From Stachybotrys elegans (taxonomy: Eukaryota > Ascomycota > Sordariomycetes > Hypocreales > Stachybotryaceae), in the NCBI GenBank assembly GCA_020746835.1, contig JAGPNK010000021.1:248001-312000 (forward strand): DNA of 64,000 nucleotides, in the 5' to 3' direction. The notes under the pieces were generated by a model. The model was not told where the DNA came from. It saw only the letters and a list, made by a program, of their open reading frames with translations, and did no database searches. Positions 582 through 49,072 of the stretch are shown here, in pieces. Each line of letters opens with the position of its first letter. Position 1 is the stretch's first letter. The translations under genes and the position numbers were made by a program.

Positions 582-1111
582 CTTCTCACAACCGGCGTGC
601 ATACATTACAAGGGTAAGAAGAATGAAGAATGGAATTGCACACTTTGCTATGTTTTTAAGGAGTCTGCGTGGCTTGTCGTAAGCGCTACTAAGAAGCGTC
701 GAGTCCATGTTTACTTAAACGTGATTTGAACATGACTTGAGCATGAGCTGAACATGATTGCAACCTTGTCGCCTTCGCCCTCCCCTCCCCCAAGGTCTCG
801 AACCGCCCATCTCCACTTAGGTCTATTTTTTGGGCTATTTTTGGCCAAGCCGCTGTGAACGTTGCAGCTTTCTTTTATGGTGTTTGACCGGCGTGCCAAT
901 AGTGCCAAAGCCACAGCAAGGGCAATGTTGCTTGTCCTCCGTGACTGGTTGAATCAATTCAACTCTAAACTGATGTAGCATGTTAGCATTGTCAATATGC
1001 ATGAGTCGACCGGTCGAGGATGGCACGTGCTTGCCGGCGCCCTACAAATGAGACGCAGCACCCACGACACACCGATAACGAAGCTTCGCTTGGCCTTGAA
1101 ACTACCTCGAC
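582..1111. other. Divergent intergenic region
   Basis: Shared upstream region of the leftward DUF3433 gene and the rightward secreted-protein gene. Around 720-762 there are about four degenerate copies of a 10-11 bp unit resembling TTGAACATGA. No coding signal was seen. Confidence 0.4.
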
Positions 1112-23454: not shown

Positions 23455-23595
23455 GAAGACGGTTTGTGTAGACTATAACACTTATGTGGTTGAGGGACAG
23501 AGCGGCTCAGCATGTTAAATCTAAATTGCACTAGAAGCTTGCCATGCCAAGACAAGACAAGACGTTTGCCCACATAATTCACCCATTCACGAGAT

Positions 23596-24917
23596 TCAGA
23601 TAATTCCTGTTCCAGCCTGTGATTTAACTCTATCGCAGATGCAAGAAGCCTCGTCAACTCTATTGAGCAGTTAGCAAACGCACATGTATTCAAGGTCCAC
23701 ATACGTATAGCTATAAGGCGGGTTCGTGTGGCCCGTCTGGGTGATCTGAATGTTGCTGTTGGAAAAGACGTTGTTGCGCTGCGTCACAAACCCCTGGTTA
23801 TTGGCGTCGAGGTTCGTGTGGATGGCGTCCTTGACGTTGCGGAAGTAGTTTTGCTCTACAAGAGCCCTGGCCCCTTCGCGGATGTTGAGGCCGGAGCCGG
23901 GGATGTTCTCGTAGCAGCTAGAGTAGATGTGGCCGGTGCCGAACCGCAGAGAGGGCGTGCGGGAATTGACCTGGTTCCACCAATTGTGATGGTATGTTAC
24001 GCGGAGCTTGCCCTGGTCTTCTGCGGCGTTGCTGGCCGAGTGGCCGACCAGCGAACCCTTCCACTGCCGAGTCGTCAGCGCTGCGGGCTCGGGTTGTTGA
24101 TTGACTCACATGGTCTGCAAAGGTGTTCCAAGAGACCGTCACGAAATCGCTGGCGTGGGTAATGTCCAAGAGACCGTCGTAAAAGTCCTTGTCTCCCACC
24201 AGCCCGTCGTTGGAGAACTCGTTGTGGTCAATCCACACCTGCGTCGCGCGGTCGAGGGCGAGCAAGTCGCCTCCCTGGGGCGGGTTCTTGAAGCGCAGGT
24301 TGCGGATAATGACATTGCTGACGCGTCTGATGCGGATGCCGCCTCCGACAAATCCTGGGGTACAGTCGTCAGCATGCCGAGGTAGACGCAGCTGCAATAC
24401 ATACCCGAGCTGGCTCCGACGCCGATGACGGTGGTGCCGCCTGTCACGTCGACGATGCCACATCCGCTCAGGGTACCCGAGACCCTGATGACACCGCCGC
24501 TACCGGCAGCAGATCTAAAAGCCGAGCAGGATGTGACTGTCGTCCCACTGCCGCTGCCACCTCCTGTGGTACCTGCGCCATACCCAACGAGTTGATTGAC
24601 GGGAGCAGAAGAGCATGCTCCTCCACCACCCCCTCCTCCTCCACCTCCTCCTCCTCCTCCCCCTCCTCCCCCGTCTCCTCCTCCCCCGCCGCTTCCACCC
24701 TCCAAACACTGCCAATACCATTCATTCTGAGGGGTGCATGTCCAGCCTGGCCCATCAGCAATCACAGCAGGCCGAGGTTCTGACAACACTTACCCGAAGG
24801 ACAGATCGTGGGTCCGCTATAGCCAGATCCACCACACTGGCCCCAAGGACTGGCCTGCTGCGCGGCGGCTATGCCTGCGGAGGCGAGGATGCCAACGAGT
24901 GCCTGCAAAGTCCACAT
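23596..24917 (-). CDS. PL1 pectate lyase with N-terminal CBM1
   Basis: Five exons (24917-24794, 24746-24405, 24354-24110, 24063-23705, 23659-23596) add to 378 codons (377 residues), with introns of 45-50 nt. A signal peptide (MWTLQALVGILASAGIAAAQ) leads into a cellulose-binding CBM1 (WGQCGGSGYSGPTICPSGW, CTPQNEWYWQCL). A long Gly-rich linker follows, then the parallel beta-helix lyase: VWIDHNEFSNDG with calcium ligands, and NSRTPSLRFGTGHIYSS with the catalytic Arg. The last exon supplies YTVDEASCICDRVKSQ, the usual C-terminal helix. Cleaves polygalacturonate by beta-elimination. The CBM1 would tether it to cellulose in intact walls. Confidence 0.9.
24600..24700. repeat. Coding microsatellite for the Gly-rich linker
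   Basis: A run of TCC/TCCTCC-type repeats on the plus strand encodes about 25 consecutive glycines, broken by one Asp, between the CBM1 and lyase domains. Confidence 0.8.
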
Positions 24918-25858
24918 GGCAGAGATGCGTTGATCCGTGTCGATCAGAAGGGCTCATCACACCTCGACACAAGGATAGCCATGCTGGCTATTTGAATGCG
25001 CCACCCATCTCTTGCCGAGACATACGCTGAGCCAAGACTGGTTATATTGAGTGTCGTGTTCTGGGAGACGTCGGAGTTTCTGCACCTATCCCGTAGCCTC
25101 ATCGCCCTACACACCGCGACACGGCCGTTATTCCTGCTGGGCACGCCATCTTTCCACCAGTCACATACAGCTAGTGCTAAAATTCGACCGTGGTGTAGAC
25201 TTGGCACACGCTGAGGATGCGCCGTAAGAAACTGTGAATCACGGAAGCGGAACATTCCGACTTGCCCAATTCTTGACTAGGCGGCGCCAAGCAATTCGCG
25301 TCACTCGAGATTGAGTTCCTACACTAGCAGGGTTTCCATGCTTCTTGTGTGAGGGCTTTTGGTGTCGCTCAAGGCACGCAGCATCCCAAACTGGCAGCCG
25401 CGAAGTCTGCCTCCGAAGCAGGCTGGGCAAAAACCACATGTGGGTGCTTGCCGAGTCCTGGCGTGGGTGATTATTCAAACGTGGTAGTTTACAAGAAATC
25501 GTCATATTCACTTGCACGGCAACACAAATCAATACTGGGTTATGTAGAGTGTAGACTAACTCGCGCTTGAACAGAGATTGGTTTGCTTCTGAACTCCATG
25601 ATCCTCTCCATCATGGGAGTGACTTGTAAAGACAATCGTCCACAAACGTCTCGATCTTGCACTAAGATCAGAGACATGGATTGTTAGCATCGCCAATTTC
25701 ATACAGCTTGGTCGCATTTGGTTCAGTGGCCGGGTTTAGTTCAGTGGCCGGGTTTGGTTCAGTGCAAATACTTGACAAGATCTGCCACATCCACCAATTA
25801 CACACCCTGGCTGTGGCTGGGGTGGTTGGGCTGACAAGGCCCAGCTGCCAATCGACAA
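24918..25858. other. Divergent intergenic region
   Basis: About 940 bp between the pectate lyase promoter and the CorA-like gene. A 19 bp unit, GTTTGGTTCAGTGGCCGGG or close to it, repeats about 2.5 times at 25718-25765. No coding signal. Confidence 0.35.
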
Positions 25859-27529
25859 ATGGCTCAACTCATCGGATCTATCGTGCCAGGTAGGACCTGG
25901 TATATTATTTATCTGCATAATCTAGCATCGACTGAAATGACGGCTCTCCTCTCGGCCTGGTGGATGCAGGATCCCCCCCGTCCGGGGACAGAGGCGAATG
26001 ACACACAATTTCCACATCTGCAGTGGCCGTGGAGCACGCGCGACTCCGCCGTTGTCCCGCTGGCCGAGCTCAAGGCCTTTCTCAGCACCAAGCACGACAG
26101 GAAGCTGTGCGCGGTGCACACGTTTGAGCACCACGACGCCGAGTGGGCGTATCGCGGCCTCTTTGACGACTCGGAGGCCTTGCTCCATGAGCTCAAGGCA
26201 AAGCCTGATAATGCCCTATTGTAGGAACCCCATCTGCTCTTGGGGCAACCCACTTACCTCGGCACTAGTGTCGTAACGGCTGCTGGCCCGGAAGTTATCC
26301 AGGCCCTTGGCTACTATCTGGACATTGCGCCGCGGTTCTTCAGCTCTGGCGCCGTTCCGTCAAGCACAAGCAACCATACCTTTGATTGTGGGTACCGTCG
26401 GCGCAGTCAGTAATATCGCTGATCGAGATGAAGATGCGGCGTTCCACCTACAGTTCATGGATCGATACGAGGCGGGGACCTACCCTGGGGAGTTTGTCCG
26501 AATGGCCAGAGACGCATTCGTCTTCAGGTTTGGCAGGAATACCTTGCTCGAGGATAGACACGCGGTTACGTGGCACGTCACTCGATTTGCCATGGTTTTC
26601 TGGACGAAGCCTACCGGAAGCGGGTGTCTGGTGCATCTAGACCGTGGCAGCAATGTCGTTTTTGACGGGTTCAAAAGACTGATGGTGCAAAATGAGACGA
26701 GAGCCTGGACCAAGTTTGAATCCAAGTTTGGCTGGGGCAGAACAGTGAGCTACATGTTTCGCATCGTCTATCACAACTGGGACGTATTCCTTGCCGAGGC
26801 AGACTCTCACGTAAAGATGCTGGTGAGTCGAGACGCAACGCGCTTGCCACGATGCTGACCAGCAGGGCCATGCCGTCCTATACGAGGAGACGAACCATGA
26901 CCGGCAACGCGAGCTGTCGCTTACCCTACACAGGCTCTGTTCCAAGTGGACGCAAGTGCGTCACCGTATATCGGCTGCCAAGGACGTGGCCCGGCAATTG
27001 ACTACTCATCCCTTCTTTGGCCAGGACGGGGCTGAAACCATGGAAAGCCTGCTCGGTAAGATGATTGCGGGCTTTGATCAACAGGTTAAACGGATAGAAG
27101 AGATAGACGACTATACCAAGTCTCTTATAAGCATGGTACGGCGCACAGCCCTCGGCGAAATCATAATTAACTAATCTCGGGCCAGGTCTTCAGCCTTGCC
27201 ACCTTCTCAGACACGGCAGCGTCTATCCAAGAGACCAAAGTGGCCAATGAACTGGCGGCGAGCCTCCGGCGCGTGGCCATGCTCACCTTCTTCTACCTGC
27301 CCCTGCAGGTGTCAGCGGTAAGGCTCGGCGCAACTCTGTGGGATCGCCGTGTTGACGTATGCAGAGCGTGTTTGGGATGAACGTAGGCGAAATCACGCTG
27401 GAGGAGGGCGCGCTGGGGATATGGAGATTCGTCGTCTTGTCGTTGTGCCTGATGGGTTTCACCTTGATTGTGTGGATCGTGTGGTCGAAACAGCGCATAG
27501 CAGAGCGTTTCTGGAAGCCCACCAGGTGA
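25859..27529 (+). CDS. CorA-like divalent metal transporter-type membrane protein
   Basis: Six exons (25859-26220, 26269-26387, 26428-26822, 26866-27135, 27186-27317, 27365-27529) sum to 481 codons (480 residues). Intron 1 is 48 nt and carries an in-frame stop, so splicing is required. The long soluble N-terminal part is followed by a helical stalk (NELAASLRRVAMLTFFYLPL). The C-terminal pair of helices carries FGMN, the CorA selectivity motif, then WRFVVLSLCLMGFTLIVWIVW. CorA proteins form pentameric Mg2+ channels; this divergent fungal group is common in Sordariomycetes and its substrate is not established. The start is uncertain: Met at 25937 or 25964 would also fit. The intron 3 acceptor could be 3 nt earlier. 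Confidence 0.75.
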
Positions 27530-27974
27530 AGACTGGCGCGGCTACTCCGTAGCGTCAGTGCAGACACAGTTTCGGGGCCAGTGGGTAGTGGCAAATTGGG
27601 ATGAGTGATCTCCACGGCGCCGTTTTAACAGGGATGGAAAGGGTGGAGTGTTTTGAATCTGATGGACCAAGAGACGGCTTGTGTGGATGCATGATTACAT
27701 GATTGTTATCTAACAAGGTGCTTCAAACGTATCCGAGGTTTCAACGACAAAGACGGCACCCAACATACGGAGTACAGGTCTGTCTTTTGTGTAGAATTGC
27801 TTTTCAGGTTTCAGTGGAGTTGCACGGCGTGTGATATTACGTGTGATACAACAAGCGATGGACCGTCAATGCATTCATTATTAGTCTGGAAGATTGGCGA
27901 TCCTTGTCCCCGCCGCGTCGATTGTCTTGAAACGGCGCAGCGCCCCGCCGAAAACCCTGATTCCGCCCTGGCGT
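27530..27974. other. Convergent intergenic region
   Basis: Between the 3' ends of the CorA-like and enoyl-CoA hydratase genes. Nothing recognised. Confidence 0.3.
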
Positions 27975-29213
<1,239 letters not shown>

Positions 29214-30098
29214 TGTCGTTCGTCTGATGTGTCTTTCTGTTTGTCTGTATCTCTGTCTGTTGTCTGCTTGGGGGGGCGAGCTTGGAGTTGGGCACGTTGG
29301 GTCCAGGCCCTTGGGGTAATATGTAAGAAGACTGCGGTACAGCTGGCTTGATTGGCTCGGTCTAGGCTCCGCGGTGGTGCGGCGTCGATGCATGAGAAAC
29401 GGGGGGGGGCGTCCCACCTCGTTCCCCTGGAGCTGGGGAGCCGGAGTTTGTTTGGATGCAACATGCAATCAATATGCACTTCTGTAATGACGCCGGTGGG
29501 CCCTGGACCTTGACCGAGCCGTGACTCTGCCGAGGCGCGCCATGGGTTGACGCCATTGAGCCGTAGTCTCCGCCTCTGGTTTAGGGAGGTCAAGCCGTCG
29601 CGGCATTGGGCCGAGTGGGAGTCTCGCAGGCACCTCTACTGTCGCACCAATGCGCTTGCGCCGTTCCCACTGTCGTCTCCGTCGTGGGTCCTCGAGGCCC
29701 GGACAGCCAGGCTCGGCCCCTGTTCCCGTCCCGAAACTCGTCGAGGAAACCAAACTCTACTACGTATGTACATACAACACACGTCTTTGCTTCGTGGAGC
29801 CTCGCAACACAGACTCTTTCCCACGCTCCCTGTCCGAGGAAACCAGTTATGGGCCACCCAGGCGAGGAACGGCTCCCTTGCTCTCGGTTCGTGCTGTCTT
29901 CGGATGTTTGCCCGTTGTCTGTGCGGCGTCATGCCAGTCCACACGGCCATGAATAAGAGGACGGCCATTCCTCGCGGGCCTGGGTTCGTTTCGATACCGT
30001 CACCAACGGCCGATCCATATTCATAGCGCCCTGGAGGTAGCTTGTTGTCCTTTTGCTCTGGTTGTTGTTGCTGCTGCTGTTATTGTTTGTTTTGCACA
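29214..30098. promoter_or_regulatory. Shared divergent promoter region
   Basis: About 885 bp between the starts of the enoyl-CoA hydratase gene (left) and the NRPS-like gene (right). The stretch just before 30099 is TTG/CTG-rich. Co-regulation is possible but not shown. Confidence 0.4.
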
Positions 30099-33000
30099 AT
30101 GGCTTCCTTCCACGGCCTCGAGGAGCTTCCTCTGGCCGACCGAATCCTCTTCAACAAGTTCAGCCGGGGCAAGGAGGTCCCCATCCCCTACGGCGTAGTC
30201 CACCATGCCTTTGAGGCCATCGCCTCGGCCAACCCGAGCGTCACGGCCGTCCGCCACCACGACGGCACCACCATCACCTACAGAGAGCTCAACAGCCGCG
30301 CCAACATGCTGGCCAACGAGCTGCGGACGAGCCACGGCTTCCGCAAGGGCGACCGCGCCGTCCTCGTCTACTCGCGGTGCATCGAGATGGTCGTCTTCAT
30401 CTTCGCCGTCCTCAAGGCTGGCGGCCAGTACGTGCCCCTCGACGGCGGCATCATCCCCGAAGACACGCTCCGATACGACATCATCGACTCCAAGGCCCGC
30501 GTCGTCCTCTGCACCCCCAAGTTCGAGGCCAAGGTCCTCGGCTGCATGGTCGACAGGATGCCGTCGCGAGTCGGCGTCGTGGCGCTCGACAAGAACAGCC
30601 CGCTCTGGGCCCAGGGCAACACCTCGACGCCCTCGGTCGACGTGACGCCCGACGACGGCGCATACGTCATCTACACATCCGGCACCACCGGCCGGCCCAA
30701 GGGCGTCGACGTCAGGCACAGGGGCGTCACCAACACCCTGCTGGCCGAGCCCTCCAAGCTCGGCATCACCGTGGGCTCCCAGGTTGCGCAGCAGCTCAAC
30801 GTGGGCTTCGACATGTGTAAGTTTTTTGTCCCGCAGGCAGCGCCGCACCACACCCTCTAACACGCAGCCAGGCGCATGGGAGATTCTCGGCACCATGATC
30901 AACGGCGGCACCCTCCACATCCGGGGCAGCGGCAACGACCTCTGGAGGGAGTGTCTGCAGCGCGTCGACACCGTCATCGCCACGCCCTCGGTCGTCCTCA
31001 AGCACATGGCCGACCGCCGCGAGTTCCCCAACATCCGCACCATTGCCGTCGGGGGCGAGCCTTGCCCCGTCGCCCTGGCGGAGACGTGGGCGCCCTACGT
31101 CAGGTTCTGGAACGTCTGCGGACCGACCGAGATCAGCATCCTCAACACGGCGCATCGCCACAGGCCTGGGGCAAAGCTGTCCATTGGCAAGCCCAACCCC
31201 AACACCAACGTCTACATCCTCGACGACGACGAGAAGCCCGTCCGCATCGGCGAGCCGGGTGTCATGTGGGCTGGCGGACCAGGCGTCTCTCGGGGGTACT
31301 TGAACCTGCCCTCCCTCACCAACGAGCGCTACAAGCCGGATAAGTTTACTCGCAATGGGTAAGTCTCCCATCACGCAGGATGCTTGTTGTACAAGGCGTC
31401 ATCCAGCTGCTTGTTCGCGCAGACTAACCATCGCAGGACCCTCATGTTCAACACGGGCGACCTGGCACGGTGGCTCGAGGACGGCAGCCTGGAGCCTCTG
31501 GGTCGAAAAGACGACCAGGTCAAGGTCTCGGGGTTCCGCGTCGAGCTCGACGGCGTCTCGAGAGCCATCGAAAAGTGCCCTACCGTCATCAAGGGGTGCG
31601 CCCTCAAGATTGACGAGAAGCTCTGGGGCTTCTACTCGGCCCCGGCCCCCATCCAGGAGGAGCAGCTCAAGGCCGTCGTCGGCCAGGGCATGCCCTTTTA
31701 CGCGGTGCCCACCGTGTGGAAGCACTGCCGCACCATTGCGCTGACGCCCAACGGCAAGGTCGACAAGCGCGCCCTCAAGGCCATTGCCGGCGGCCAAGAG
31801 GCTCCCCCCTCGGCAGCCGCGCCGACCCCGATGCCCAAGGCCCTTCCCGCCGTGCCCCTGACGCTGCAGCTCTCGCAGAGCACCGTCGAGACGAGGCTCT
31901 CGCAGAACTTTGACGTGTCCTCGCCCGTCACGCTGGTGGCCTCGGCCGACTCGGTCAGCCTGGAGAAGGGCGAGGTCGAGATCATCGACGGCTCGCCCGA
32001 GGAGTTTGAGGTGCCGCAGAAGAAGGGCTTCCACGGGTGGCGATGGGTGCGGCACCGCGGGCTCTCGGCGTACCGCAAGCTCTTTGGCGTCATCTTCCTG
32101 GCCAACATGGGCGTCTTTGCCTGGATGCTCTGGGAGAGCCGCAGCGTCAGCTTCTCCCTGCCGATCCCGCATATTGCCACGGCCGTCGCGGCCAACCTGC
32201 TGGGCGCCGTGCTCCTCCGCCAGGACTACGTCGTCAACCTCATCTTCTGGGCGTGCTCGCGGCTGTCGACGTCGCTGCCGCTGTCGGTCCGGCGGCACTT
32301 TGCCCGCGTCTACCACAACGGCGGCGTCCACTCGGGCTGCGCCGTGTCGGCGTCCGTCTGGTGGACCGTCTTCACGGGCGCCGCGACGGGCAACTTCCTG
32401 GCCGCCGGCGACGCCCTGTACCCCGTGGACCTGGCCACGCTGCTGCTCTCGTACCTGGTGCTCCTGCTGCTCGTCTCCATCCTCGTCATGGCGTACCCGG
32501 CCATCCGCGCCAAGATGCACGACCAGTTTGAGTGGACGCACCGCTTCGCCGGATGGACCGCCCTCGGCCTCGTGTGGGCGCACGTCGTCCTGTCGGCCAA
32601 CACGGCGGCGACGCCCGAGCGGCCCCTCGGCCAGACGCTTGCCGCGACGCCCGCGCTGTACCTGGTGGCGCTGACGACGCTAAGCATCGCCCTGCCCTGG
32701 ATGCGCCTCCGCCGCGTCAGGGTCGTCCCGGAGCCCCTGTCCAAGCACGCGGTCCGCCTGCACTTTGACTTCGTCACGCCCGGCCCTTGCACCTCGCGGG
32801 GCGTCCGCATCACCGACAGGCCGCTGGTCGAGTGGCACGCCTTTGCCGCCATCCCCGAGCCCAGCGGCAAGGGCTTCAGCATCATCGTGTCCAAGGCCGG
32901 CGACTGGACGAGGAAGATTATCGAGAACCCGCCCACGTCCATCTGGACGCGCGGCACGCCGGCCTCGGGCGTTCTGGCCATTGCGCCGCTGTTCAAGAAG

Positions 33001-37101: not shown

Positions 37102-39129
37102 TCAAGCACCGTTGCCTGCTTGGGCTGGCTCCTCCAGCGTCATTTCCTCTACCATACCAGACAGCGACTGCGAGGGCTCTCCCTCCTCGTCATTTCCTCC
37201 CACACTCCCAGGGGCGGCACTGCTGCCACCAGGCACCCCGGCGCCTTCACCGTTGCCCCCATTGCCCGACTCGGCATCCGGACCCGCTCTGTCTTGCGGA
37301 CCCTCGTTGGTACGGTTATAACTCGTCGGCTTGCGCTTGAGAGATGGTGGCTTGTCGTACTCATCCAAGTCACTGGCGTCGCTCACGTCTTCGTCTTCGG
37401 GCTGCAAAGAGTCCAAGAAGTCGTACATGTCAATGTTGAGTGTTTCGGGTTCTCTCTCTTCCCAGAATTGTGGCAGGATACATTCTGCAATAAGTTCCGG
37501 ACAACCTGGTAGTGGCGACGCTGGCCCAACCCATTTGCCGTAAGTTTTGACCAACTTGGTGAAGGCTTGGAAGCTCATATGGCCATAGTTTTTGAACTCT
37601 ACATTAACATCCCAGACCATGGGTCCCATGTCGAATGTAGTGTGAATCACTTCGTAACGGCCGTTGATAAGACCCTGGACGACGTCAAGGAATCCATCCA
37701 TTATATCTAGAGCATATAATGTTAGTACTGCGTGCCATCTTTGCCCAGGTCCGGTCGCGAACTTACATGGCCATGTCAATCTGACCGAGAACAAGTCTAT
37801 GTTCTCATCTTTCTTCTCTTTCTCGCATATCATCTCGGCGACCTTTTGCCACACAGCAAAGCGCTGAAAAGCGGTCTGGAAGAGTTCGGACCATTGGTGG
37901 TTCACGGGATCCCCGTCGAGGATGAGTTGGAAAGATTGTTTCGGCATCCCAGCCTTTTCAAGCTCTAAAGCCTCCGTGACCCAGACAGCGAAACGGCGGG
38001 CGAGCCTATAGTCGCTGACCTTGCCCACGGATTCCGGATCATCGTCAGTTGCTGCCGAGGTCACCTTCCAGTTGTGCTCGAAATGGGGGAAGCATCGCAT
38101 AGCGGCTGAGTCTGGTGTCATGAATACAGTCCGCCACATATCAACGCGGCGTTTGATGCGAAGACGAGGATTCTCCTGGCAGTACGGAATGAACCCGAGG
38201 GCGTGTGTTTCAGGGTAGGCTACCGACACAGCATTTTCATCGAGATAGATTCTCCGCAAGTGCGTTCGTAGATGTGACGGGAAGCGAGACAGGAAGGCTA
38301 TAGCGGCAGACGCTGCTGAGAAACGATACTTGCCGTCGGTATACCATGGCTGCCCGTCGGCATCAAGAAACTGTCGCCTTTCCCAGTGTTCTGTTGTGTG
38401 TGGGGGGCACTGCATGAGAGGCCACATTTTCCCGATCCTGCGCCCAGGAGGGATGTAGCTCCAAAAAGGCAGCCTCTTGAGGTGTGGCAGCATATTCGGG
38501 GGCAAGAAATGCTCGTGTTCAGACTCGTAAAACTCGGCATCTGGATCGGTCTCAAACCATTCCCGAGGCCAGGTATCATACTTGACTACCAGCTCGTAAA
38601 GACGAAGCAGTGCCCGGTTGACGTATGAGAATGGAAGTCCCCAGTCGCTATTGTGCACACGCCGGTCAAAGGCTGGCTGCGTAAGTACATGCCGAAGAAA
38701 CGGTTCCACTTTAGGAAAGTCGACAATGACTTCCTCTAGGATAGACTCGTTGAAGCCGCATTTGAACCCTGGCTGCTGTTGCTCCTCTAGATCGTCATCG
38801 AGGTAGCCTCGAAAAACCTCGCAGAGCAGCGACATGGTGTGGTATGCGCAGCTCTGAAAGCGAGCAGCTGTGATGCGTGCCTCATCTGAATAGTCGGACG
38901 AGAAGTGGATGGTATTGGTGTTGAGGGCCAGGCCGTCGGTCTCACCGGCGACTTGCTTGCATGTAAGCCTGAGGGCTTGGTCGATAGGCTGCTTTTCGCC
39001 GTCGTGGCCGCGAGCCTCGAGCTTGCGGGTTTTGAAGTTGTAGACATAACCGCCGTCAGCAGCAAAGTAGGCGCAGTAGATGGCGTCGCGAATCTCGCGG
39101 GGGAGGTGGAGAAAGGGCGGAGGAGCCAT
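37102..39129 (-). CDS. Large protein with N-terminal LPREIRD motif, function unknown
   Basis: Single exon, 675 residues. It begins MAPPPFLHLPREIRDAIYCA, the short F-box/2EXR-like opening seen in many Pezizomycotina proteins of unknown role. The middle is ordinary globular sequence with many aromatic residues. The last ~100 residues are acidic, Gly/Pro/Ser-rich and probably disordered. No catalytic motif or membrane segment was seen. Either a substrate adaptor or one of the expanded fungal 2EXR-type proteins; the domain call rests on the first 20 residues only. Confidence 0.7.
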   Translation of the reverse strand: MAPPPFLHLPREIRDAIYCAYFAADGGYVYNFKTRKLEARGHDGEKQPIDQALRLTCKQVAGETDGLALNTNTIHFSSDYSDEARITAARFQSCAYHTMSLLCEVFRGYLDDDLEEQQQPGFKCGFNESILEEVIVDFPKVEPFLRHVLTQPAFDRRVHNSDWGLPFSYVNRALLRLYELVVKYDTWPREWFETDPDAEFYESEHEHFLPPNMLPHLKRLPFWSYIPPGRRIGKMWPLMQCPPHTTEHWERRQFLDADGQPWYTDGKYRFSAASAAIAFLSRFPSHLRTHLRRIYLDENAVSVAYPETHALGFIPYCQENPRLRIKRRVDMWRTVFMTPDSAAMRCFPHFEHNWKVTSAATDDDPESVGKVSDYRLARRFAVWVTEALELEKAGMPKQSFQLILDGDPVNHQWSELFQTAFQRFAVWQKVAEMICEKEKKDENIDLFSVRLTWPCKFATGPGQRWHAVLTLYALDIMDGFLDVVQGLINGRYEVIHTTFDMGPMVWDVNVEFKNYGHMSFQAFTKLVKTYGKWVGPASPLPGCPELIAECILPQFWEEREPETLNIDMYDFLDSLQPEDEDVSDASDLDEYDKPPSLKRKPTSYNRTNEGPQDRAGPDAESGNGGNGEGAGVPGGSSAAPGSVGGNDEEGEPSQSLSGMVEEMTLEEPAQAGNGA

Positions 39130-39700
39130 GGTGAATTAGCCGAGCTGGTAGTGCCGGCGCACGCTATGGATTGTTGAATGAGGCCTCGCCGTGCTGATTG
39201 TCGTGCTGGTGCGGCGAGGTTGTTGAGGTTGTTGAGGTTGGTGAAGTTGGTGCGGTTGGTGCGGTCGTGAGGTGGCAAGGCCGAGGATGCAAGAAGCAAA
39301 GCCAGTGCTGGGCAGCCCGCGTGTTATATAATTGTCTGTCATACTCAGTGGCTTGCCACAAAGGTCATCGAGGGAGGGGATGGACTTAGCTTTGCAACAA
39401 GGTTGCCTAGTCGGGTGAGTCATTGCCAACAAGCGGGGCCTCAGTCAAACTTTGTCTGACTGAGGCCCACGGCGCAGACGGAAACGGCGAACCCTCGAGG
39501 AAACCCAAAGAAGAAGAAGAAGAAAAAAAGAAAGAAAGAAAGAAAGAAAAAAATCCCCCAGAGAGAACGACGAGCCACCCCAGCTCGCTAGGACAGCCGC
39601 TCGCTGTGAAGGCAAAAAGCCCTAACTCACAGGTCCTCGCTGGCGCCTTTGGAAAAAAGAGTCTCAACGCGGGCATGCGTCACTTTATGATGAGGAAAAG
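39130..39700. other. Intergenic with purine tract
   Basis: Upstream of the 675-residue gene. Contains (GTTGAG)-like repeats at 39215-39260 and an AAG/AAAG purine tract at about 39508-39552. Confidence 0.4.
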
Positions 39701-39826
39701 AGTGTGCAGTGTAGGGTGTAAGCAGTAGAGAGCAAATAAACAGTAGAGGTGGTGCCTAGTGCCCCGGCAACCAATGCAGTCGTAAACAGTAGAGAGAAAC
39801 AACAACGAGGCCATCGTCAGGCTGCC

Positions 39827-40275
39827 CTTGCTCAATGCAACGTTAGCAAAGGCTTCCTCTCATCGCCGCACGACCAACTTACCGTACAGGGTAGCCGACT
39901 GGCCGAACGGCCGAGTGGCCGAGCCACAGGTGGCTGCGACTTCTCATGTCAAGGTTAGCTGAAGTCCAGACACGAGCCTTGCCTGGATCAGGTACAGGTA
40001 CATACGCACCGTCACAAGCCACACTGAGCTCTCGAACAAGTTAGCCACGGCGGGGTGTACGAAGCAGGCGGGGAAAAGCGTACTGACCATGCGCAGGCAT
40101 GTGATGCGACGGGATGTCGAGCTGGCCTCCTAGACATATCAGCAAACGCCACAGCCACATCACACGGTGAGTCACACTCGCAGACACGCACATACACGTA
40201 CACGTACGGAGGGTTGGGGCGGGGTCTACCGGCGAGTTAGATGACAGTTCATACCGAAATAACAGATGCACATAC
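39827..40275 (-). other. Further candidate introns beyond the proposed stop
   Basis: The same splice grammar continues past the proposed stop codon at 40298: candidate introns 40226-40275, 40024-40087, 39940-40005 and 39827-39882, each with a donor, a CTAAC-type branch site and an AG. Either the 3' untranslated region is spliced or the real coding chain is longer. Confidence 0.4.
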
Positions 40276-40898
40276 TAGACCAGATGGAAGGCTCTGACTA
40301 ACTGCAACCACACAAGGTTGCCTGTATGTCAGATAAGCTTCAATTGGTATAGGGGCCACATTGAATACGTACCGGTGCCCGGCTGGGAAGCTTCGGTTGA
40401 CTCATCTACCAGAAAGTTAGATGATGCTCATACTGGAACAGCAGATGCACATGCCGGATGAACGCTGACTGACCGAATAAGGTTGCCTATACACCATATG
40501 AGCTTTAACCGGGACGGCCGCGTTGGGAGCATACCGACGCTGCAGAAGCCTTGCTGTGACTGTGACCGTGACTACATCAGATGAGCTTGAACCGGGACGG
40601 CCGCTGCATCGAAGACGTACCCTGTGCCCAGATGGAGAGCGCCACTGGCTGCAACCACAAGGTTGCTTGCACGTCAGATACTGCACTGAGGAGAAAATGC
40701 GGTGAATGCATACCGATGCTAATGGAAAGCTTCGACTGACTGCAACCACAAGGTTGCCTGCACGTTAGATGAGCTTGAACCGGCTTGACAACGACATTGA
40801 GGACGTACTGACGCTGGAAAAGCCTGTGACTGCAACCACACAAGGTTGCCTATGAATTAGACAATGCCCAGACGGAGATGATATTTTCAGCAACATAC
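40226..40898 (-). repeat. Array of ~90 nt exon+intron units (array 1)
   Basis: Units recur about every 90 nt. The exon part often begins GCAACCTTGTGGTTGCAG and the intron part has GTACGT, then GGTTCAAGCTCATCT, then AAC and AG. Stem-forming GCAACC/GGTTGC lies within several exons (near 40313, 40651, 40742, 40832). Introns here are 49, 51, 48, 49, 48, 49, 51 and 50 nt. Confidence 0.75.
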
Positions 40899-43393
40899 CA
40901 TCGCTCCAGGCTGCCAACAGAGCTGCCGCTAGACATGTTAGCTACATCACCGGGCTGATGGAAAGGACGCACAAAAGCTTGATCTGCCTCCTGAATCGTC
41001 AGAATAAGAAGAGTTTTGCAAGGAGATGGCTAGCTTACGCCCACGGCTACATAAAGCCCTTGAGCCCCCGGCTCCTGACAGAACAATTAGTTGGCGGCAC
41101 AACACCCCTTTCATGCCCGGAGAACTTACGAGAGAGATGAATTCATCATCCGTATCCCACCACATGCTTGTGCCCTATGACGGTAAGCTTTTTCCTTCTG
41201 TTGGCCGTTTCTGTTCACTTACTCACAGCTGATCGAGACAACAAAGCAATTAGTTGGTACTTGGTGCCCAGCAGAAGGGTGACTGACTTACTCAAAATGC
41301 AAGCAAACAACACCCACACCCACAACAACGCGGCTGTGTCTTCCAAGTTAGCAAGCGCTTGTAACTATAATGCAGCCGGCTTACCAGAGGGGTCGAATCC
41401 CCCTGCTGAAGCTTGCAAGCATTAGTAGGACTAAGCCTCAAATAATCACAATAACGCACCTGCTCCAGCAGCCACGGCAGCCTCGGCTGCCGCCACTACC
41501 AACGCTGGCGAAGTCATCCACAAGGTGAGTTGCCCTGAGGGGTCTTCTCCAGCTCATCAACATAAGTTGTTAGCAGACTCTCGAGCTGTAGCCGCAGTCT
41601 TGCTCACCCGATGACGGTGTTGCTGACGGTCTGGACTGGGGCAATTAGAAGAGCTCCATGGATTTGTTGTGTCCACTTACATACAACAGGATGACTTCTG
41701 CCGCCCCCCTTCCCCCGGAGCCCCAGAGCCGTACAAGAAGCGGCAGGGCAGAAAGGGCAAGAAGGCCCAACTCGCCGACGACAGGCCCCTCGGCAGCCAA
41801 ATCAAGCTAATGAGGGGGGATAGCTGTCTAAAATCAGTAGGTGAGAGACATGAGCAAGATAAGCATAAATGGACACAAGTGTGCATTGACGTACAGGGCC
41901 CTGGCGCGACTCAGCCCAAGTTAGTAAACAAGGCAAAGATTCGAATCGATATGGGAGAAATCCGCACACAGAGACGTACGGCTAACTTGAGAAGCCCTGA
42001 TGGAGCTCGGGCCGTTAGCTGACGTCATGGCTCAAACCAACATAGCAAAGAGACGTACAGAGACGGTTGGAGTTGCTCCAAGAGAGCTCTCCTCGGTCAG
42101 TTGAGTGTTGGAACTCGCGATTGGCAGGCAATGTAGGGAAAGCAAAAATGATATACATACTTGGCTTGGTTTTTCGGTGCGGGTTTTCGGTCGGTTTTTT
42201 GCTTTGGTTGTTGAATTGATCACTTTTGCCGCCTTCTAGCATTGTGATCAGCAGGTATAGTAGTAACACGGGTGACCACAAAAAAAAGTGCGTGGTAGGG
42301 AGATTCTCTAATTAACGTCAGCCTCCTTTACCAACACTGGGTACTCTGGAACCCACTTGATTTTCCCTCGGTGCTGAGCGTGGAAAGAAGGATCAGAGGG
42401 CTGGGGGAGGAAGAGACTATACCTCACGAAATTGTGTGCCCAATGCCCCTGTGACGTGACTGCATAGCTATCAGCACTCGCCGCAGCTTAATGTCTCGGC
42501 AAAGTCAGCTTGTACGGCCAGGCGAGACAGAAGGCTGCCGGTCCATCCGGCGGGGTGAACTAGCGTACCGTTTGATCGAATGCCGATACCATCGTAGAGA
42601 GCTGTCCTTGGACGTGGTCAGAGACTGGAGAGGTTGGCGGAGGCTGTGGTGATGCAAGGGCAAACCTACTGAGAAGAGCCAGCTCAGGCAACGTCAGTAA
42701 GTCCCAGAGCGGTGGTGTAGATAAAGACATACACGAACGACGTACAGCAGACTGCAGTAGCCAAAGCGCTTAGAGGGTCAGTCTGCGCGCACTGGTCCTG
42801 AGAATGGGTTGAGGTTGCGACCAAGATGCAAAGGAAGAAGTTGACATACCAAGCAATGTGTCGGAAGCCGTAGTCGTGTGTGGAAGCTGTGCGCTGACTG
42901 TATTAGATGAGGCAGTGGCTAAAGAATAAAGGGAGAGCAGGATGTACGCTGCGAAGGAACTGTAGTTGTGTGAGAAGGTCGACTATCTTTGGATGAGACA
43001 GTGGCCAAGGATTGAGGAAGAGCCGGGCGTACCGTACGCTGCGAAGAAGCTGCGGCTGTGTGAGAAGGCTGACTAGCCTTGTATAAGGCAGTGGCCAAAA
43101 GAACCGAGGAGGAGATGGGCGTACCATGTGATGCGAAGGAGCCGTGGGGGAAGCTGGGCGCTGGTCTTAGATGAGGTTGTTGGCCAAAGCATCAAGGAAG
43201 CACCGGACGTACGTACCACGTGATGCGGGGAACCTGCTTAGTCCTTTGAGATAAATCATCAGCACAAGGACAAGCCAGTGTTTCCGCCTCTTGCTGGAAA
43301 GGGTCGACTCACAGCAACGAAGTGTGGGAATGGGTCCAGGGTAAGCCGGAAAAGACGGTGAAAAAGAAACAGTGCAAGCCTTTTAAACCTCAT
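40298..43393 (-). CDS. Putative micro-exon gene encoding a secreted repeat protein
   Basis: Exon 1 (43393-43313) encodes MRFKRLALFLFHRLFRLTLD, like a signal peptide. Next exons: 43233-43217, 43160-43125, 43072-43033 (or -43038), 42982-42948, 42897-42850, open in one frame with introns of 79, 56, 52, 50 and 50 nt. At the other end seven exons (40849-40809, 40757-40714, 40665-40621, 40571-40535, 40486-40455, 40405-40373, 40321-40298) read in one frame to a TAG, encoding peptides such as QPCGCSQWRSPSGHR. Their introns are 48-51 nt. Donors are GTACGT/GTATGY/GTAAGT, with CTAAC/CTGAC branch sites before YAG. Further good introns in the middle: 41910-41979, 41997-42058, 41828-41894, 41334-41384, 41229-41291, 41075-41129. 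The middle exon chain is unresolved. Function unknown. Confidence 0.45.
42850..43216 (-). repeat. Array of ~90 nt exon+intron units (array 2)
   Basis: A second array with its own unit of about 90 nt. Exon parts resemble CCTTCTCACACARCYRCAG and intron parts contain CTTTGGCCACTGYCTCATCTAA. Four to five copies between about 42,850 and 43,216. The unit differs in sequence from array 1 but has the same period and exon-intron plan. Confidence 0.75.
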
Positions 43394-43658
43394 GCTCGGG
43401 AGGGGTGGAATGAAAAGACATAGCAAGCATGGCACGTAATAGTTAAAGAGCAAGGTCAATTGGTTGTATGTATATATATGTGTGTGTAAGGAGAAAAGGC
43501 AATGCTCGAGATACAATAAGCAACGACAGAAAAGAGCATGGTAAACCAAGGAGCAGGAAATGGTGGGAGAAGGGACGATAATAGACGAGATTGTAGTAAC
43601 AGGGGAGCATGAAATCGAGAGACAGCTGGCGTACGTGTGTAATCTCGCTCCCCTCCAT

Positions 43659-46600
43659 CTACCTCATATCCTTGTTGGTATGGGCACGCAGCTGGAGCAG
43701 ATTGCATTTCCTCCTTTTGGCAGGCGGTGCGGCGCCGTCGTCTGGTGCCGGACGTTTCTTGATGTATTCGGTGGGAGGCTTGCCGGAAAATTGGTCTAGG
43801 TTGAAGGTTTCGAGAGCATACTTGGCAGCATGGGAGGGATTGTTGAATATCTCTTCCAGCATAGGCCTCTTCAAATAACCGGATTGGAGCCTGATATCGT
43901 CGAGGAGCCGCCTCCGCGGTTCGATCAAACTCCAATCCTCACACTCGACAAAGAGATGCATGACCGTCTCGGGCTTCCTGCCGCACCTGCGACACAGCTC
44001 AGAGGTAACACCGGGGGCGCCGATTCTCTTGAGGAATGGCCTTAGAGCAATGACATTGACCCTGCATTGCAGCAGAATGGTGGTTTGCTTGCGGGTAAGG
44101 CCCCCCCCGTAGTAAGAGAGGTTCTCACGCCCCCACGCCGTATCCAACGCGATGGTGTAGGCGTGGCGATCTTCTCCCCGGCGACTGTTCTGGTACTCGG
44201 ACCATCTCTGCTCCATGGTGTCCCGAATCATCAGATCCCCCGTCTTCTTGATGGCCTCTTTCCGCCATTTACCACATTCAGGCGCCGCCCACTTTTGTTC
44301 AAAGATGGCTTCGGAACCCGAATCTCGGTAGCGCTCGCGAGTCTTGGAGATTACCTGCGTGGCAAGAAGACGAAGCCTGTGGTAAGGATGGCGTGACTGC
44401 ATGGATATGGGCCGGAGTGAGGCAGGATAAGAATAGCACGTCCCGTCCCGAAATGAATGCAACATCTTGGCCTGGTGCACCTGGGCTTTGATGTGTAGGG
44501 TGAGAGAGAGGGGTGGGATGTTGAGCTCTTTTTGTATCATCAAGGCAGATGTGGTGGGTAGGGCGCCTGCGATGAGCCTAAGGCACTGACGCTGGAACGT
44601 GTCGAGTTGTGCGATGGAGCTTTGCTTGAGGTAGCTTTCCCTGGTGCCTCTCGTCATGTTATCTTGAAGCTGGGCGGCTGTCTGGGACGCATCCATGAAC
44701 CAGACGGGACAGGCGTAGGTCAAGATGGACTGGACCCTGGAGATGTAGAGGTTCCTCATATCGACTAGGTTGGGACCCCATGTGCTGCCGGACATGAATT
44801 GCAAGATGCGGAAGGCCTTGCTGGCCTTTTTGAAGAGGGAATTGATGTGGACTGTCCATGACAGGCGCGGATCGACCAGCACACCGAGAAGCTTGAGATA
44901 ATTCTTTTCGAAGAGTACCTCGACGGGAGGCAGCCTCTTGATATTAGGGACCTCGCGGACTTGCACCTCTTTGTCACGGGGGCCGAGGAAATGAAGCAGG
45001 CCGTACTTTTCAGGAGAAAACATGACGCCGTTTTCCTTGGCCCACACCCGCATCCTTGCGTAGATGACTTCGATGATTTTGCAGTTTTCCGCCCACGAAG
45101 AGGAGCGCACCAGGATGCTGGTGTCGTCGACAAACGCAAGAATTATGACGTGGAGCCAGGAATAATCCGAGCCCATCCCAAGAAGCGGCGCAGCGAAGAG
45201 CAGGAACAGGATAGGAGAAAGGACGCTGCCCTGAGGAAGGCCCCCGTTCTCATGGAAATGTTGAGGTTCGTCTCCAGGGATGCAGAGGAGGGTCATGCGC
45301 TCGGAGAGGAAGGAGGTGAGGAACATGGCCAGGTAAGGTGGGAATTTATGTGTCCTGAACATGGCCATCAACGCCGAGCGTTTGAGCAGAGGAAAGGCAC
45401 GCGTCATGTCAAGCACCATTATAGTGACCTTGTCAAGCCTTTTGCACAGCCACGCCTTCTGGACAAACGAGGTGATGAGCTGAAGGGCCATGGTGGTCGA
45501 GGTGCCCGGCAGCCCACCGTACTGCGTCATAGGGATCGCACGCACACCAGTGCAGCCTTCGAGGAATGCCCTGATGCGCTTGGCCACCAGGCGCTCGAGC
45601 AACTTGCCGACAACCGGGAGAAGGGCGATGGGGCGGTAGGATGTTGTTAGGGTGGGATCCTTGCCCAACTTGAGGAACAAGATGGTCCTAGAGGATTTGA
45701 AGAGTCGTGGGTGGTAACCGAGGCGGAGGCATGCGCTGTAGAAGCGGGAGAGGTACGGTGCGATGACAGGGGCAGATAGCTTGAGAGCCTCGTACCCAGC
45801 GCCGTCCAAGCCGGGAGCTTTGCCACTGGGGAGCGCCTTGATGGCTTCCACTACCTCCTCCACTGTCACAGTGGTGGCTGGGTCGTCATCGAAGTTGGCG
45901 TTGTGGTCGCAGTGCCCAGGATCCTCGCTATCCCCATCTGTCTCTGTGCGGCTCGCCATGCCTGTACCATAAATGTCGTTCATCATGGCATCGGCCTTGG
46001 TTTCCGACGTGGTAGCCTCCCCCGCACTGGTACGCAAGTTGGGTGCCTGTGGCATTGTCGCTGGCTGTGAACGTTGTTGGGTGGACTTGGCGAGGCGCGA
46101 AGCCAGAAAGCTATGTGCACGCTTGCCTTTGGCAGCGGTGGGTTTCTTGCCCTTGTTCTTGCCACGTGAGCCGTTCTTGACAGAGGACTTGTTCTTGCCA
46201 CGTGAACCGTTCTTGACAGAGGACTTGTTCTTGCCGCGAGGCCCTCTCTTGTCGTGGTAGCCTTTCCCAGGAGCCTCCTTATCCTTGCTAGGTTCAGGGA
46301 CCGGAGGCTTGGGAGACCGAGTGTGCTGGCTTCGCTTGGGGTCGAAAGGGTCGCTGTCGGGGACGAGTTCCTCGACGGCTTTCACGAGAACCTTGTGGGT
46401 CAGAACCTCGCTGTACTCGTTCAGGTGTGCGCCCGTCTCGAGTGGCAGAGAATCGAGGACGGGAAGCTTGGACTTGACAAAAGCTTGGAACTTGGCGGCG
46501 TCGACTTTGTCGTAGTTGCGACGGCTACCGTGTTGTCGAGGGACGCTCAAATGCAACCAGAGCTCGCAAGGTTTGTGGTCACCTTTCAATTTTTCAATCT

Positions 46601-47291
46601 CAGGCATGTTCCAAACAGGACTCTTGCCTGTGCCGGGGCCAGTCCTCTCGAGGCTTTTGCTGACGAAGGCGAGGTCCAAGGTCGACCGCCACCTGGATTC
46701 GTCGGGTTTGGCGGAGCGCGCGTAGGTGATGGCCCCGCGTTTCGTAACGAGCATCATCTCGCGGTCCTCAATTGCCTCGACAAACTGCTTGGCCCGAAGC
46801 GAGATCTTACTGGGAGGCAATCCGTCACCGGCCCACATGGGATGGTGCAAGTTGAAATCCCCAAGCAGAACCGACGTATTGTAGCTACTGGCTACCCGAA
46901 CAACCCTCTGGAGGTCAAGCTCCATCCCATCGTCGAGCTCCTTCTTCTCGTTGCGATACACATTGTGGATAGCCATTATATGCTTGGGTAGATCGATGAC
47001 CAAGGTTTGGAACATGTCGTTGGACCACTCATGCTGGACCCTGGCCCAGCACCCAATGGGGAGAGTATTCGAGACCAAGAAGCAGGTTTGGTTGTTGAAC
47101 TTGGGCGGCGAAGCCCCGGGGACATTGTGCATGTCATGATGGTCGTCCGTGATGGGCTTTGGTGAGTCGTAAACGCTGTAGTAGCGGCCATTCGTATAAC
47201 GATTCGTCCACATAACGCAAGGCGGAACATCCTGGAGAACGACGACGTGGTAGTTCCTGCGGCTCTTATAGATGTAAGCCAAGGCGGCCAA
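43659..47291 (-). CDS. LINE endonuclease / reverse transcriptase polyprotein
   Basis: One uninterrupted frame of about 1210 codons; the listed first codon at 47291 is TTG, and the frame stays open upstream to 47357 (QTIDDENGFLLLQFNC). Domains in order: an AP-type endonuclease (QFN, LQDVP, GDFNLHHPMW, STLDLAFVS, GDHKP); a Lys/Gly-rich linker with a repeated SSVKNGSRGKNK; reverse transcriptase (LDMTRAF, GLPQGSVLSPILF, FVDDTSIL with the catalytic Asp pair); and a C-terminal CCHC-like knuckle (CRRCGRKPETVMHLFVEC). No RNase H domain. No internal stop or frameshift, so the copy is young or under selection. No upstream ATG in frame: just before 47357 there is a splice-acceptor-like CTAAC...CCAG, so the first exon may lie further upstream. 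Confidence 0.85.
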   Translation of the reverse strand: MAALAYIYKSRRNYHVVVLQDVPPCVMWTNRYTNGRYYSVYDSPKPITDDHHDMHNVPGASPPKFNNQTCFLVSNTLPIGCWARVQHEWSNDMFQTLVIDLPKHIMAIHNVYRNEKKELDDGMELDLQRVVRVASSYNTSVLLGDFNLHHPMWAGDGLPPSKISLRAKQFVEAIEDREMMLVTKRGAITYARSAKPDESRWRSTLDLAFVSKSLERTGPGTGKSPVWNMPEIEKLKGDHKPCELWLHLSVPRQHGSRRNYDKVDAAKFQAFVKSKLPVLDSLPLETGAHLNEYSEVLTHKVLVKAVEELVPDSDPFDPKRSQHTRSPKPPVPEPSKDKEAPGKGYHDKRGPRGKNKSSVKNGSRGKNKSSVKNGSRGKNKGKKPTAAKGKRAHSFLASRLAKSTQQRSQPATMPQAPNLRTSAGEATTSETKADAMMNDIYGTGMASRTETDGDSEDPGHCDHNANFDDDPATTVTVEEVVEAIKALPSGKAPGLDGAGYEALKLSAPVIAPYLSRFYSACLRLGYHPRLFKSSRTILFLKLGKDPTLTTSYRPIALLPVVGKLLERLVAKRIRAFLEGCTGVRAIPMTQYGGLPGTSTTMALQLITSFVQKAWLCKRLDKVTIMVLDMTRAFPLLKRSALMAMFRTHKFPPYLAMFLTSFLSERMTLLCIPGDEPQHFHENGGLPQGSVLSPILFLLFAAPLLGMGSDYSWLHVIILAFVDDTSILVRSSSWAENCKIIEVIYARMRVWAKENGVMFSPEKYGLLHFLGPRDKEVQVREVPNIKRLPPVEVLFEKNYLKLLGVLVDPRLSWTVHINSLFKKASKAFRILQFMSGSTWGPNLVDMRNLYISRVQSILTYACPVWFMDASQTAAQLQDNMTRGTRESYLKQSSIAQLDTFQRQCLRLIAGALPTTSALMIQKELNIPPLSLTLHIKAQVHQAKMLHSFRDGTCYSYPASLRPISMQSRHPYHRLRLLATQVISKTRERYRDSGSEAIFEQKWAAPECGKWRKEAIKKTGDLMIRDTMEQRWSEYQNSRRGEDRHAYTIALDTAWGRENLSYYGGGLTRKQTTILLQCRVNVIALRPFLKRIGAPGVTSELCRRCGRKPETVMHLFVECEDWSLIEPRRRLLDDIRLQSGYLKRPMLEEIFNNPSHAAKYALETFNLDQFSGKPPTEYIKKRPAPDDGAAPPAKRRKCNLLQLRAHTNKDMR

Positions 47292-47357
47292 GTAGCGCTC
47301 CTTGCTACCCTTGCAATTAAACTGAAGGAGGAGGAACCCATTCTCATCATCGATCGT
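43659..47357 (-). mobile_element. Tad-like non-LTR retrotransposon (LINE), ORF2 region
   Basis: The stretch holds a complete endonuclease/reverse-transcriptase frame and little else. No ORF1 (gag-like) frame is found upstream, so the copy is 5' truncated or unusual. No poly-A tail or target-site duplication could be recognised at the 3' side (43,394-43,658), so the element ends are not defined. Confidence 0.75.
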
Positions 47358-49072
47358 CTGGCAACACCGTCATGTTAGCAACGAGACGTGAGGCAGTGCC
47401 GGTGTTTGGTGAAGGAAGCATACGAGTACCGAACGAAGCAAGTTCTGTATAGTCGGGCAGGTCCCTCACCACCCGCGTTGCTGTTCTGGCTTTGGTGATT
47501 CAAGTCTTCAAGACGGAATCCATGGGGGGCAATGTTGTGAGAGGAGTGCTGTTTGAAGCCCCACCCCCACCAGATGGTCCCACCAGATGGTCCTCGCTGG
47601 CGGGAGCGGCACTGGGCATGGCACGGCACGGCACGGCACAGAGCACAGGCTATCGAGGAACGAAACTGGGTAATTTGCAGCGCGTAATGATGTCTGGCTG
47701 TATGATCAGATGCACACTGTCGCCCTGATACACCATGCAGCCGCTTCGATTGACTCGTCTCACCTCTGATTCCCTGCCAGGCGGAGACCAATCGGAGCTG
47801 CGCGAGAATCGTCGGACCCACCACGCACCACCCACCTTGCCACGTGTCTGTCTCTGTCTCTGTCTGTCCTGCTTGTCTGTCTGTCTTGTCTGTGCCGTCC
47901 CTCACCAAGGATAAAGATGGGTGCAATGATGTGTCGCAAACCTCAGTCTGGGGTACGTATATTTCCCAGGTCTTTTTTTATATATATTTATTTTTTACGT
48001 GGATGCAGCATTGTCCCAGCAATCCCACTCACGTGAATGTGATGCAGCTGTGTCGGCCATGGTCGCAAAAGAAGCACTGCTCCCAATCTATGGCGGCCAT
48101 TTTCACACCATTCATTCACTCCCTTTCCACCAAACCACGACAATCAGCACTTGCACTGGCTCACAACAAATGCAGTCCTTCTAGTCTTCTATGTTCGCTA
48201 TGATGCTCGCTAATGCTCCAGGTGCACCTCTGGCCATGACACGCCTGGCCGTCCAGGGTAGGCTGTACGTTTGCCGGCATCATGCTGGAATGCCGTGGCT
48301 GGTAGCTCGGGCCACGCGTCTCCCCGGGAATCCGCATCGCGTGGGTACGAGACGAGACATGGGGAGCCGGCAAGGCGGTTCCAGCAAAAGGGTCCGAGCC
48401 GCTTAGTCAATCGACAGACTATGGTGCCAGCAGACAGTTATAGACATGTCATACGGAGAGCAACATGAAGCCATTTATCGCCAGCCATCCTCTCAGCCAG
48501 CCAGATGGACCAAGGGGATCTCCTCAGCTAGCCAGCACGGGCCAAGGGGATTTGTCCGTCATCTACCATCCTGGCGGAGCGGCTAAATATAGACATGCAA
48601 TGATACTAGGCTTACGCTTCCCCAAATACAACAGGGGTTCAGCGATACACGACCATGACATGGCGATGGGCGATGGACGGTACATAATGGACAAGCAAGT
48701 AAACGACCATTGCAATCAAGAACATGAAAAATTAAAAATTAAAAAACTAAATAAAAAAGAAAAGAGAGAGAACAGAAAGTAATGCAAAAAGAGGGAAAAG
48801 AAAAAGAAAGAAATGGGTACATGGTCGGTGGATTCGTTCGGTCCATTATTTACTCGCCGCGGCCCCGGTCGACGCATCCATCCCACAAACTCGTCGATAT
48901 GCCCGAACCTCCCGCCCTGTCATGGAACCATCCCAAGGCTGCCTCTCCGAATCGCCGCTTAGGTAAACCCACGGCCGCGCGGATATATTCACGGCAGCCG
49001 CCACACAAACACATCCTCTGCCGACCATCCCCATCATTCTCCCCCATCCACCCCTCTCCCTCTACCGACAAC
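47358..49072. other. Intergenic region
   Basis: About 1.7 kb between the LINE and the monooxygenase gene. It contains CTGTCTGT repeats near 47840-47895 and a purine-rich stretch at about 48720-48820. No gene recognised. Confidence 0.35.

Follow-up and report, generated by a model that had tools for sequence, protein, structure and literature searches.

The 64,000-nucleotide stretch of Stachybotrys elegans DNA analysed here (the window, C14:248001-312000) contains, on its minus strand, a gene dissected into micro-exons, whose RNA, judged to be non-coding, is found in intronless form at many other places of the same genome. An intact endonuclease-reverse transcriptase (RT) gene and a third gene flank it, and the whole set is repeated on contigs C23 and C3. 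The arrangement is probably a split retroelement, in which an RT gene and an intron-shredded non-coding RNA gene would both stay in place and mobility would be confined to dead-end copies, the spliced cDNAs of the RNA. The DNA itself records that the RNA was spliced, reverse transcribed and integrated, that the copies decayed while the source stayed clean, and that the module is repeated. The retrocopies provide a ready record of splice isoforms, and represent genome-encoded evidence for a fungal non-coding RNA with about 30 micro-introns.

Structure of the micro-exon gene and of its intronless copies

Candidate introns were chained by using a regular expression for a donor, a CTRAC branch site and AG, without overlaps, and 200 dinucleotide shuffles were used as control. 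On the minus strand of 39684-43403, 19 chained introns were found, as compared with 1.33 +/- 1.05 (maximum 5) in the shuffles and with 2 on the plus strand. Among the 66 tiles of the window (median 1), tile 39821-43540 has the highest count. This count and the spliced genomic copies described below agree with the initial annotation in that a dense micro-exon gene is real and is transcribed from the minus strand. The number of introns, given there as at least 23, is higher (26 to 33 per copy in seven full-length copies), and the span 39827..43393 falls within the gene, whose true ends lie slightly beyond, at the limits of the copies (Table 1).

Table 1. Features of the micro-exon RNA gene and of the genes next to it, in window positions.
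Feature	Position	Strand	Evidence or remark
Source gene of the micro-exon non-coding RNA (putative)	39684..43404	minus	spliced alignment of intronless genomic copies; regular-expression chain vs shuffles
Source gene ends	5' about 43404, 3' about 39686	minus	
Introns, L009-type isoform (1/3)	43312-43244, 43212-43161, 43124-43069, 43037-42960, 42947-42894, 42849-42644, 42568-42460, 42427-42233, 42160-42092, 42058-41997, 41969-41901	minus	
Introns, L009-type isoform (2/3)	41894-41824, 41680-41636, 41607-41544, 41459-41412, 41384-41334, 41291-41229, 41226-41167, 41129-41075, 41038-40988, 40972-40923, 40898-40830	minus	
Introns, L009-type isoform (3/3)	40808-40736, 40713-40645, 40620-40572, 40534-40487, 40473-40406, 40372-40302, 40280-40226, 40195-40122, 40087-40029, 40009-39940, 39882-39827	minus	
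First exon	43313..43404	minus	5' end common to full-length copies (begin 43403-43404); contains 28-codon ORF
Last exon	39684..39830	minus	alternative starts 39830, 39826, 39821; most-copied part of the gene
Core exon, following intron and start of next exon	41534..41633	minus	69% conserved with C23 micro-exon RNA gene; blastn, 103 columns, E 6e-6
Tandem-duplicated exon-intron unit	42944..43098	minus	65 nt at 82%, spacing 90 nt; direct-repeat search
Endonuclease-reverse transcriptase gene, intact, just upstream	43659..47369	minus	Pfam RVT_1 and Exo_endo_phos_2
Third module gene (ORF of 675 aa, weakly 2EXR-like), just downstream	37102..39129	minus	three genome loci, each beside an RT/RNA pair

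The genome (43.4 Mb, 61 contigs) was searched with the source region, and at least 205 matches were obtained (best 40 of 272 candidates scored), with exons lying end to end in many loci; these loci are designated by L-numbers. Matches of L001-L008, places mostly covered by larger loci, were excluded, which left 103 chains, still including some false ends and some places counted twice in overlapping loci. Eleven copies were aligned to the window. They comprise every chain of 1.2 kb or more except L037:3345-4599 (seven out of eight), a further chain of 736 nt, and three truncated ones. When no splice-site rule was imposed, 165 of the 251 long gaps were compatible with GT/GC-AG, against 1.5% of random gaps, and the other 86 did not fit GT-AG. 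In L030 and L031, which are identical to the source, all 8 gaps were compatible.

With the splice-site rule on, the seven full-length copies lack 26 to 33 introns and consist of 27 to 34 exons each; 33 introns are removed in both L009 and L011, and 26 in both L013 and L023. The exons of these isoforms have a median length of 29 to 36 nt, the longest measuring 146 nt. All together, the 11 copies use 111 distinct junctions, 82 of them spanning 44-81 nt, made from 58 donors and 76 acceptors, many of which lie 3-7 nt apart; the first junction, 43312-43244, is used in all seven full-length copies. Each copy looks like one RNA molecule captured in DNA, and the choice of splice sites varies between copies.

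The last exon terminates with CTCTTTTCCTCATC, followed by ATA in common with the target, and carries no poly(A). It was found at 39 places beyond the source with 92-100% identity, together with 3 weaker pieces (best 40 of 306 candidates scored). A set of direct repeats, further to the tandem unit of Table 1, occupies 40300-40808 of the source gene. The largest internal exon (41684-41823, minus strand), compared between the window and L009, L011 and L013, differs strongly in several copies, which implies either that this exon of the source has been exchanged in the course of time or that variant source genes existed. At about 41510-41530 (minus strand), an exon contains, in the window, L009, L011 and L013 versions, the motif ACTYACCTTG, which resembles the 5' end of U1 snRNA. 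No Rfam match was obtained at E up to 1, and three last exons folded no better than their shuffles. Promoter motifs common to the three RNA genes (TATATA, ATGTCT) were not clearly above chance, as 324 of 2000 shuffles share some 6-mer.

The initial annotation had read the gene as one for a secreted protein, with an open frame from a signal-peptide-like start. Very many tiny exons are indeed typical of the schistosome micro-exon genes and of the aphid bicycle genes, which encode secreted proteins, and a hydrophobic ORF does stand at the start of the first exon. It opens at the first ATG (43393), however, and runs for 28 codons only, reaching a stop just after junction 43312/43244; an open frame with a signal peptide is thus missing. 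The longest ATG ORFs of the seven isoforms range between 61 and 181 aa; for every isoform this is less than the 95th percentile (181-221 aa) obtained by first-order Markov shuffling of that isoform, and 43 of the 61 shifts between alternative sites are not multiples of 3, about the chance expectation. Since the ORFs do not exceed those of shuffles in length and the alternative sites are blind to frame, the RNA is, as far as its sequence tells, non-coding, unlike the products of the animal genes. The 5' exon of the relative on C23, which begins ATGGGGTAA, also speaks against a secreted protein, and this reading retains hardly any probability. Of the earlier interpretation, the dense introns and the minus-strand transcription therefore stand, the secreted protein does not, and the remark that no fungal equivalent was known is countered by two paralogous micro-exon RNA genes in the same genome, on C23 and C3.

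On the opposite strand of the largest internal exon (41663-42022, plus strand), a protein-like stretch, PPSPGAPEPYKKRQGRKGKKAQL, is partly kept in several copies. The corresponding antisense ORF (41669-42022, plus strand) was rejected as a protein. Of its 23 genome matches, 22 are short fragments at other places; stops interrupt 21 of these 22, several fall at known retrocopies, and no parent-like gene was found among them.

Origin and decay of the copies

Full-length copies span from 43403-43404 to about 39686 and have no poly(A). In 13 of the 103 chains, both ends carry an exact repeat of 13 nt or more, as compared with 2 of 10,120 mismatched flank pairs; one of the 13 (L019) falls in a simple AT repeat. 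These target-site duplications are 13-16 nt long. Copies reach 1.2-1.4 kb, and the copies with clear duplications end at the 3' end of the RNA. The other 90 chains show no clear duplication, many of them lying in mutated AT-rich DNA or having an uncertain 5' end. Young copies are truncated at the 5' side: examples are L030 and L029, the latter beginning at the very end of the penultimate exon, with a last exon 100% identical to the source. Fixed ends, absence of poly(A), 5' truncation and target-site duplications indicate that the copies were reverse transcribed from spliced RNA, and these marks support target-primed reverse transcription as the likely route. Within L038 (C60:12400-15800, at about 820-1309, minus strand), a spliced copy of the C3 type directly joins a piece of the C14 type, as in a template-jump chimera.

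Mutations were counted in 84 of the 103 chains, after dropping those below 110 nt, those with ends past query position 3730, overlaps, and loci after L037. In the last exon, the 84 copies differ from the source by 2671 C>T/G>A changes, 26 T>C/A>G changes and 203 transversions; the C>T rate is 71% at CpA and 77% at CpG, and about 20% at CpC and CpT. The excess of 2671 changes over 26 in the reverse direction points to a RIP-like decay of the copies and to an unmutated source. Copies of 1.15-1.4 kb, including L046, carry 72 to 326 C>T/G>A changes over their length, and seven copies of at most 367 nt carry 0 to 11 each. Intermediate copies have 29 (1015 nt), 156 (1060 nt), 19 (883 nt), 11 (736 nt) and 16 (493 nt). 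The RIP load seems to follow copy length, age being a confounding factor; that the copies of 883 and 1015 nt have only 19 and 29 changes indicates that age matters besides length.

In 20 loci, chosen for having matches, the AT-rich bins add up to 154 kb, of which copies of the C14 family cover 53%; much of the AT-rich DNA in the loci sampled probably stems from such copies. Some young copies (8 of 84) lie in GC-rich, gene-like DNA.

RIP in Neurospora requires several hundred bases of homology. Since the exons are small, the homologous blocks between source and copies stay short: the longest C14 exon has 146 nt, and the match of the first C3 exon spans 225 nt. Micro-exons may therefore shield the source from RIP and let it live among its own copies, which raises the testable question of whether introns can act as homology camouflage.

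Three modules in one genome

The RT gene has a listed ORF of 1210 aa (43659-47291) within an open frame of 1236 aa, and retains the motifs GDFN, GDH, GLPQGS and FVDD, so that both endonuclease and RT motifs of a LINE are present. A tree of 23 proteins places it beside Trichoderma and metagenome proteins, and next with Colletotrichum. The dispersed, mostly 5'-truncated copies of its own that a LINE leaves behind were not found: the 3' part of the gene with its flank (1897 bases) matches, in the genome, itself and relatives of 66-67% on C23 and C3 only, and the window RT has no match in the 27 other loci examined. At the protein level its nearest relatives are those of C23 (48%) and C3 (42%), with none above 48% in the genome; the C3 RT shows one TGA in the N-terminal match, perhaps an intron.

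The third-gene ORF (37105-39129) matches B0I35DRAFT_484324 of Stachybotrys elegans at 97% identity, and its family yields 7 matches at three loci, on C14, C23 and C3. Pfam 2EXR is recognised in 2 of 22 family members (best E 0.013). The AlphaFold model has a mean pLDDT of 68, and no fold match was found in the PDB at E 0.001 or better.

In each of the three regions the RT gene is accompanied by a micro-exon RNA gene and by the third gene, in identical order and orientation, and all three RNA genes found have such an RT neighbour. Genes further upstream of the window RT (a 183-aa ORF and a FAD gene) have no match beside the C23 or C3 RT. The intron chain counts 16 in the C23 gene and 9 in the C3 gene, and 0 to 1 in four loci that cover the 3' part of other LINE relatives and the DNA downstream of it. 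Both RNAs have left retrocopies, with at least 169 matches for C23 (best 40 of 330 candidates scored) and at least 129 for C3 (best 40 of 675); 30 introns of the C23 gene are missing from L046 and 21 of the C3 gene from L052, and both copies are flanked, by eye, by target-site duplications with one mismatch. The C14 and C23 RNA genes share the intron-spanning block reported in Table 1, and neither of them matches the C3 RNA gene at the DNA level at E 0.05. C14 being closer to C23 than to C3 in RT, third gene and RNA, the parts diverged together.

Two loci, L041 (C38) and L042 (C22), belong to a LINE family; their 3' ends agree at 97% over 1.7 kb and terminate with a telomere-like (CCTAA)n.

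Proposed mechanism, alternatives and related systems

In the split retroelement, the RNA would be transcribed from a stationary template gene and then heavily and variably spliced, as seen in the copies. The spliced RNA would be turned into DNA at new sites, from a fixed 3' end, by target-primed reverse transcription, most likely carried out by the adjacent RT. The products, intronless, without RT and decayed by RIP, would be dead ends: lacking introns and RT, they are probably no sources. The source would persist because its 27-34 exons share with the copies only blocks too short for RIP recognition, and the RT gene because it is never copied. The 2EXR-like neighbour would be a member of the cassette, perhaps, as a guess, an adaptor controlling turnover. 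Against this scheme it counts that dead-end copying brings a selfish element no obvious gain, and that the copying could be done by another LINE, the genome having several with long open frames. It can be tested whether an RT that does not move is able to work on a dedicated template beside it. We propose tentatively, and with less confidence than the scheme itself, that such modules form a new class, in which enzyme and template genes never move and micro-exons hide the source from RIP while the copies are destroyed.

The other LINEs are central to a different explanation, by which the RNA would be a SINE-like parasite, an ordinary housekeeping lncRNA copied in trans by one of them, with the adjacent RT as a bystander. 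The presence of LINE relatives with long open frames would permit it, and in Magnaporthe the WEIRD RNA was reported to be copied by, and fused to, the MGL LINE (PMC2104539). We consider it unlikely, as the three closest RT genes are all found beside such an RNA gene, and vice versa; moreover, clear-duplication copies end at the 3' end of the RNA, the window RT is unmatched in the 27 other loci examined, and the (CCTAA)n end of the C22/C38 LINE, the one LINE family whose 3' end was resolved, is unlike the window, C23 and C3 RNAs. A domesticated module, by which the host would seed RIP-prone DNA through RT and RNA and so build AT-rich heterochromatin such as that of pericentromeres or subtelomeres, appears less likely still. 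It would agree with the large share of C14-family copies in AT-rich bins of the loci sampled, and with RT frames that are mostly open at 42-48% identity, which suggests selection; the young copies in GC-rich, gene-like DNA argue against it.

Introns might also have been gained, an intronless mobile element having come first and introners having been inserted later in the window copy. Some exon-intron units are duplicated, and the matches listed include no other intron-rich version of the window gene; both observations would favour this history. It is nonetheless very improbable, because no insertion of introns into a pre-existing intronless sequence is seen: single source introns are kept in copies (L019, 99% across 40808-40758; L021, 89% across 43124-43069), an intron-spanning block is common to C14 and C23, and junctions differ between copies at alternative GT and AG sites.

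As in SINE/LINE pairs, the RNA of the split retroelement would be non-autonomous and copied in trans; a fixed 3' end, target-site duplications and 5' truncation are likewise common to both. The split retroelement differs in its spliced source (26-33 introns in the window gene, 21-33 over the three modules), where a SINE source is intronless, and in a putative RT partner that is uncopied and adjoins the template. Processed pseudogenes and retrocopies likewise derive from spliced RNA and have duplications; here poly(A) is lacking, and a single RNA per module has hundreds of candidate places. Drosophila HeT-A, which has no RT, relies on the RT of another element, as in the HeT-A/TART pair, and targets telomeres; the dependence is similar, but HeT-A is not known to be intron-shredded as the present source is. 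No description of such a gene was found in the open-licence literature, searched by titles and abstract openings.

The closest parallel in description is offered by the WEIRD RNA and the MINE elements of Magnaporthe. WEIRD is non-coding, 1.1 kb long and highly expressed, and its retrocopies have duplications of 10-20 bp (PMC2104539). Judged from these descriptions, size and duplications agree with the present RNA. No WEIRD copies other than fusions with the MGL LINE or with Mg-SINE were reported (PMC2104539), unlike the clear-ended copies described here, which are solo. The WEIRD source gene was missing from the genome then available, and an incomplete assembly was suspected (PMC2104539); the strings 'intron' and 'splic' are absent from the main text of that article. 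RT-PCR of WEIRD gave several bands of 800-1100 bp (PMC3978060), as variable splicing would produce. A source cut into micro-exons would be expected to give multiple bands and could be missed by an ordinary search, because most exons, about 30 nt long, would easily escape a similarity search with a spliced copy. By analogy, the missing WEIRD gene may resemble the present one, a lead that makes the origin of this orphan RNA a testable question; the new class, if true, would explain its absence, and may be widespread in Sordariomycetes.

Elsewhere in the window, tiles with 4-5 chained intron signals (window median 1) occur at 21221-30520 on the minus strand, perhaps in an intron-rich ordinary gene, and a minus-strand ORF at 59879-61966 carries a HET (heterokaryon incompatibility) domain.
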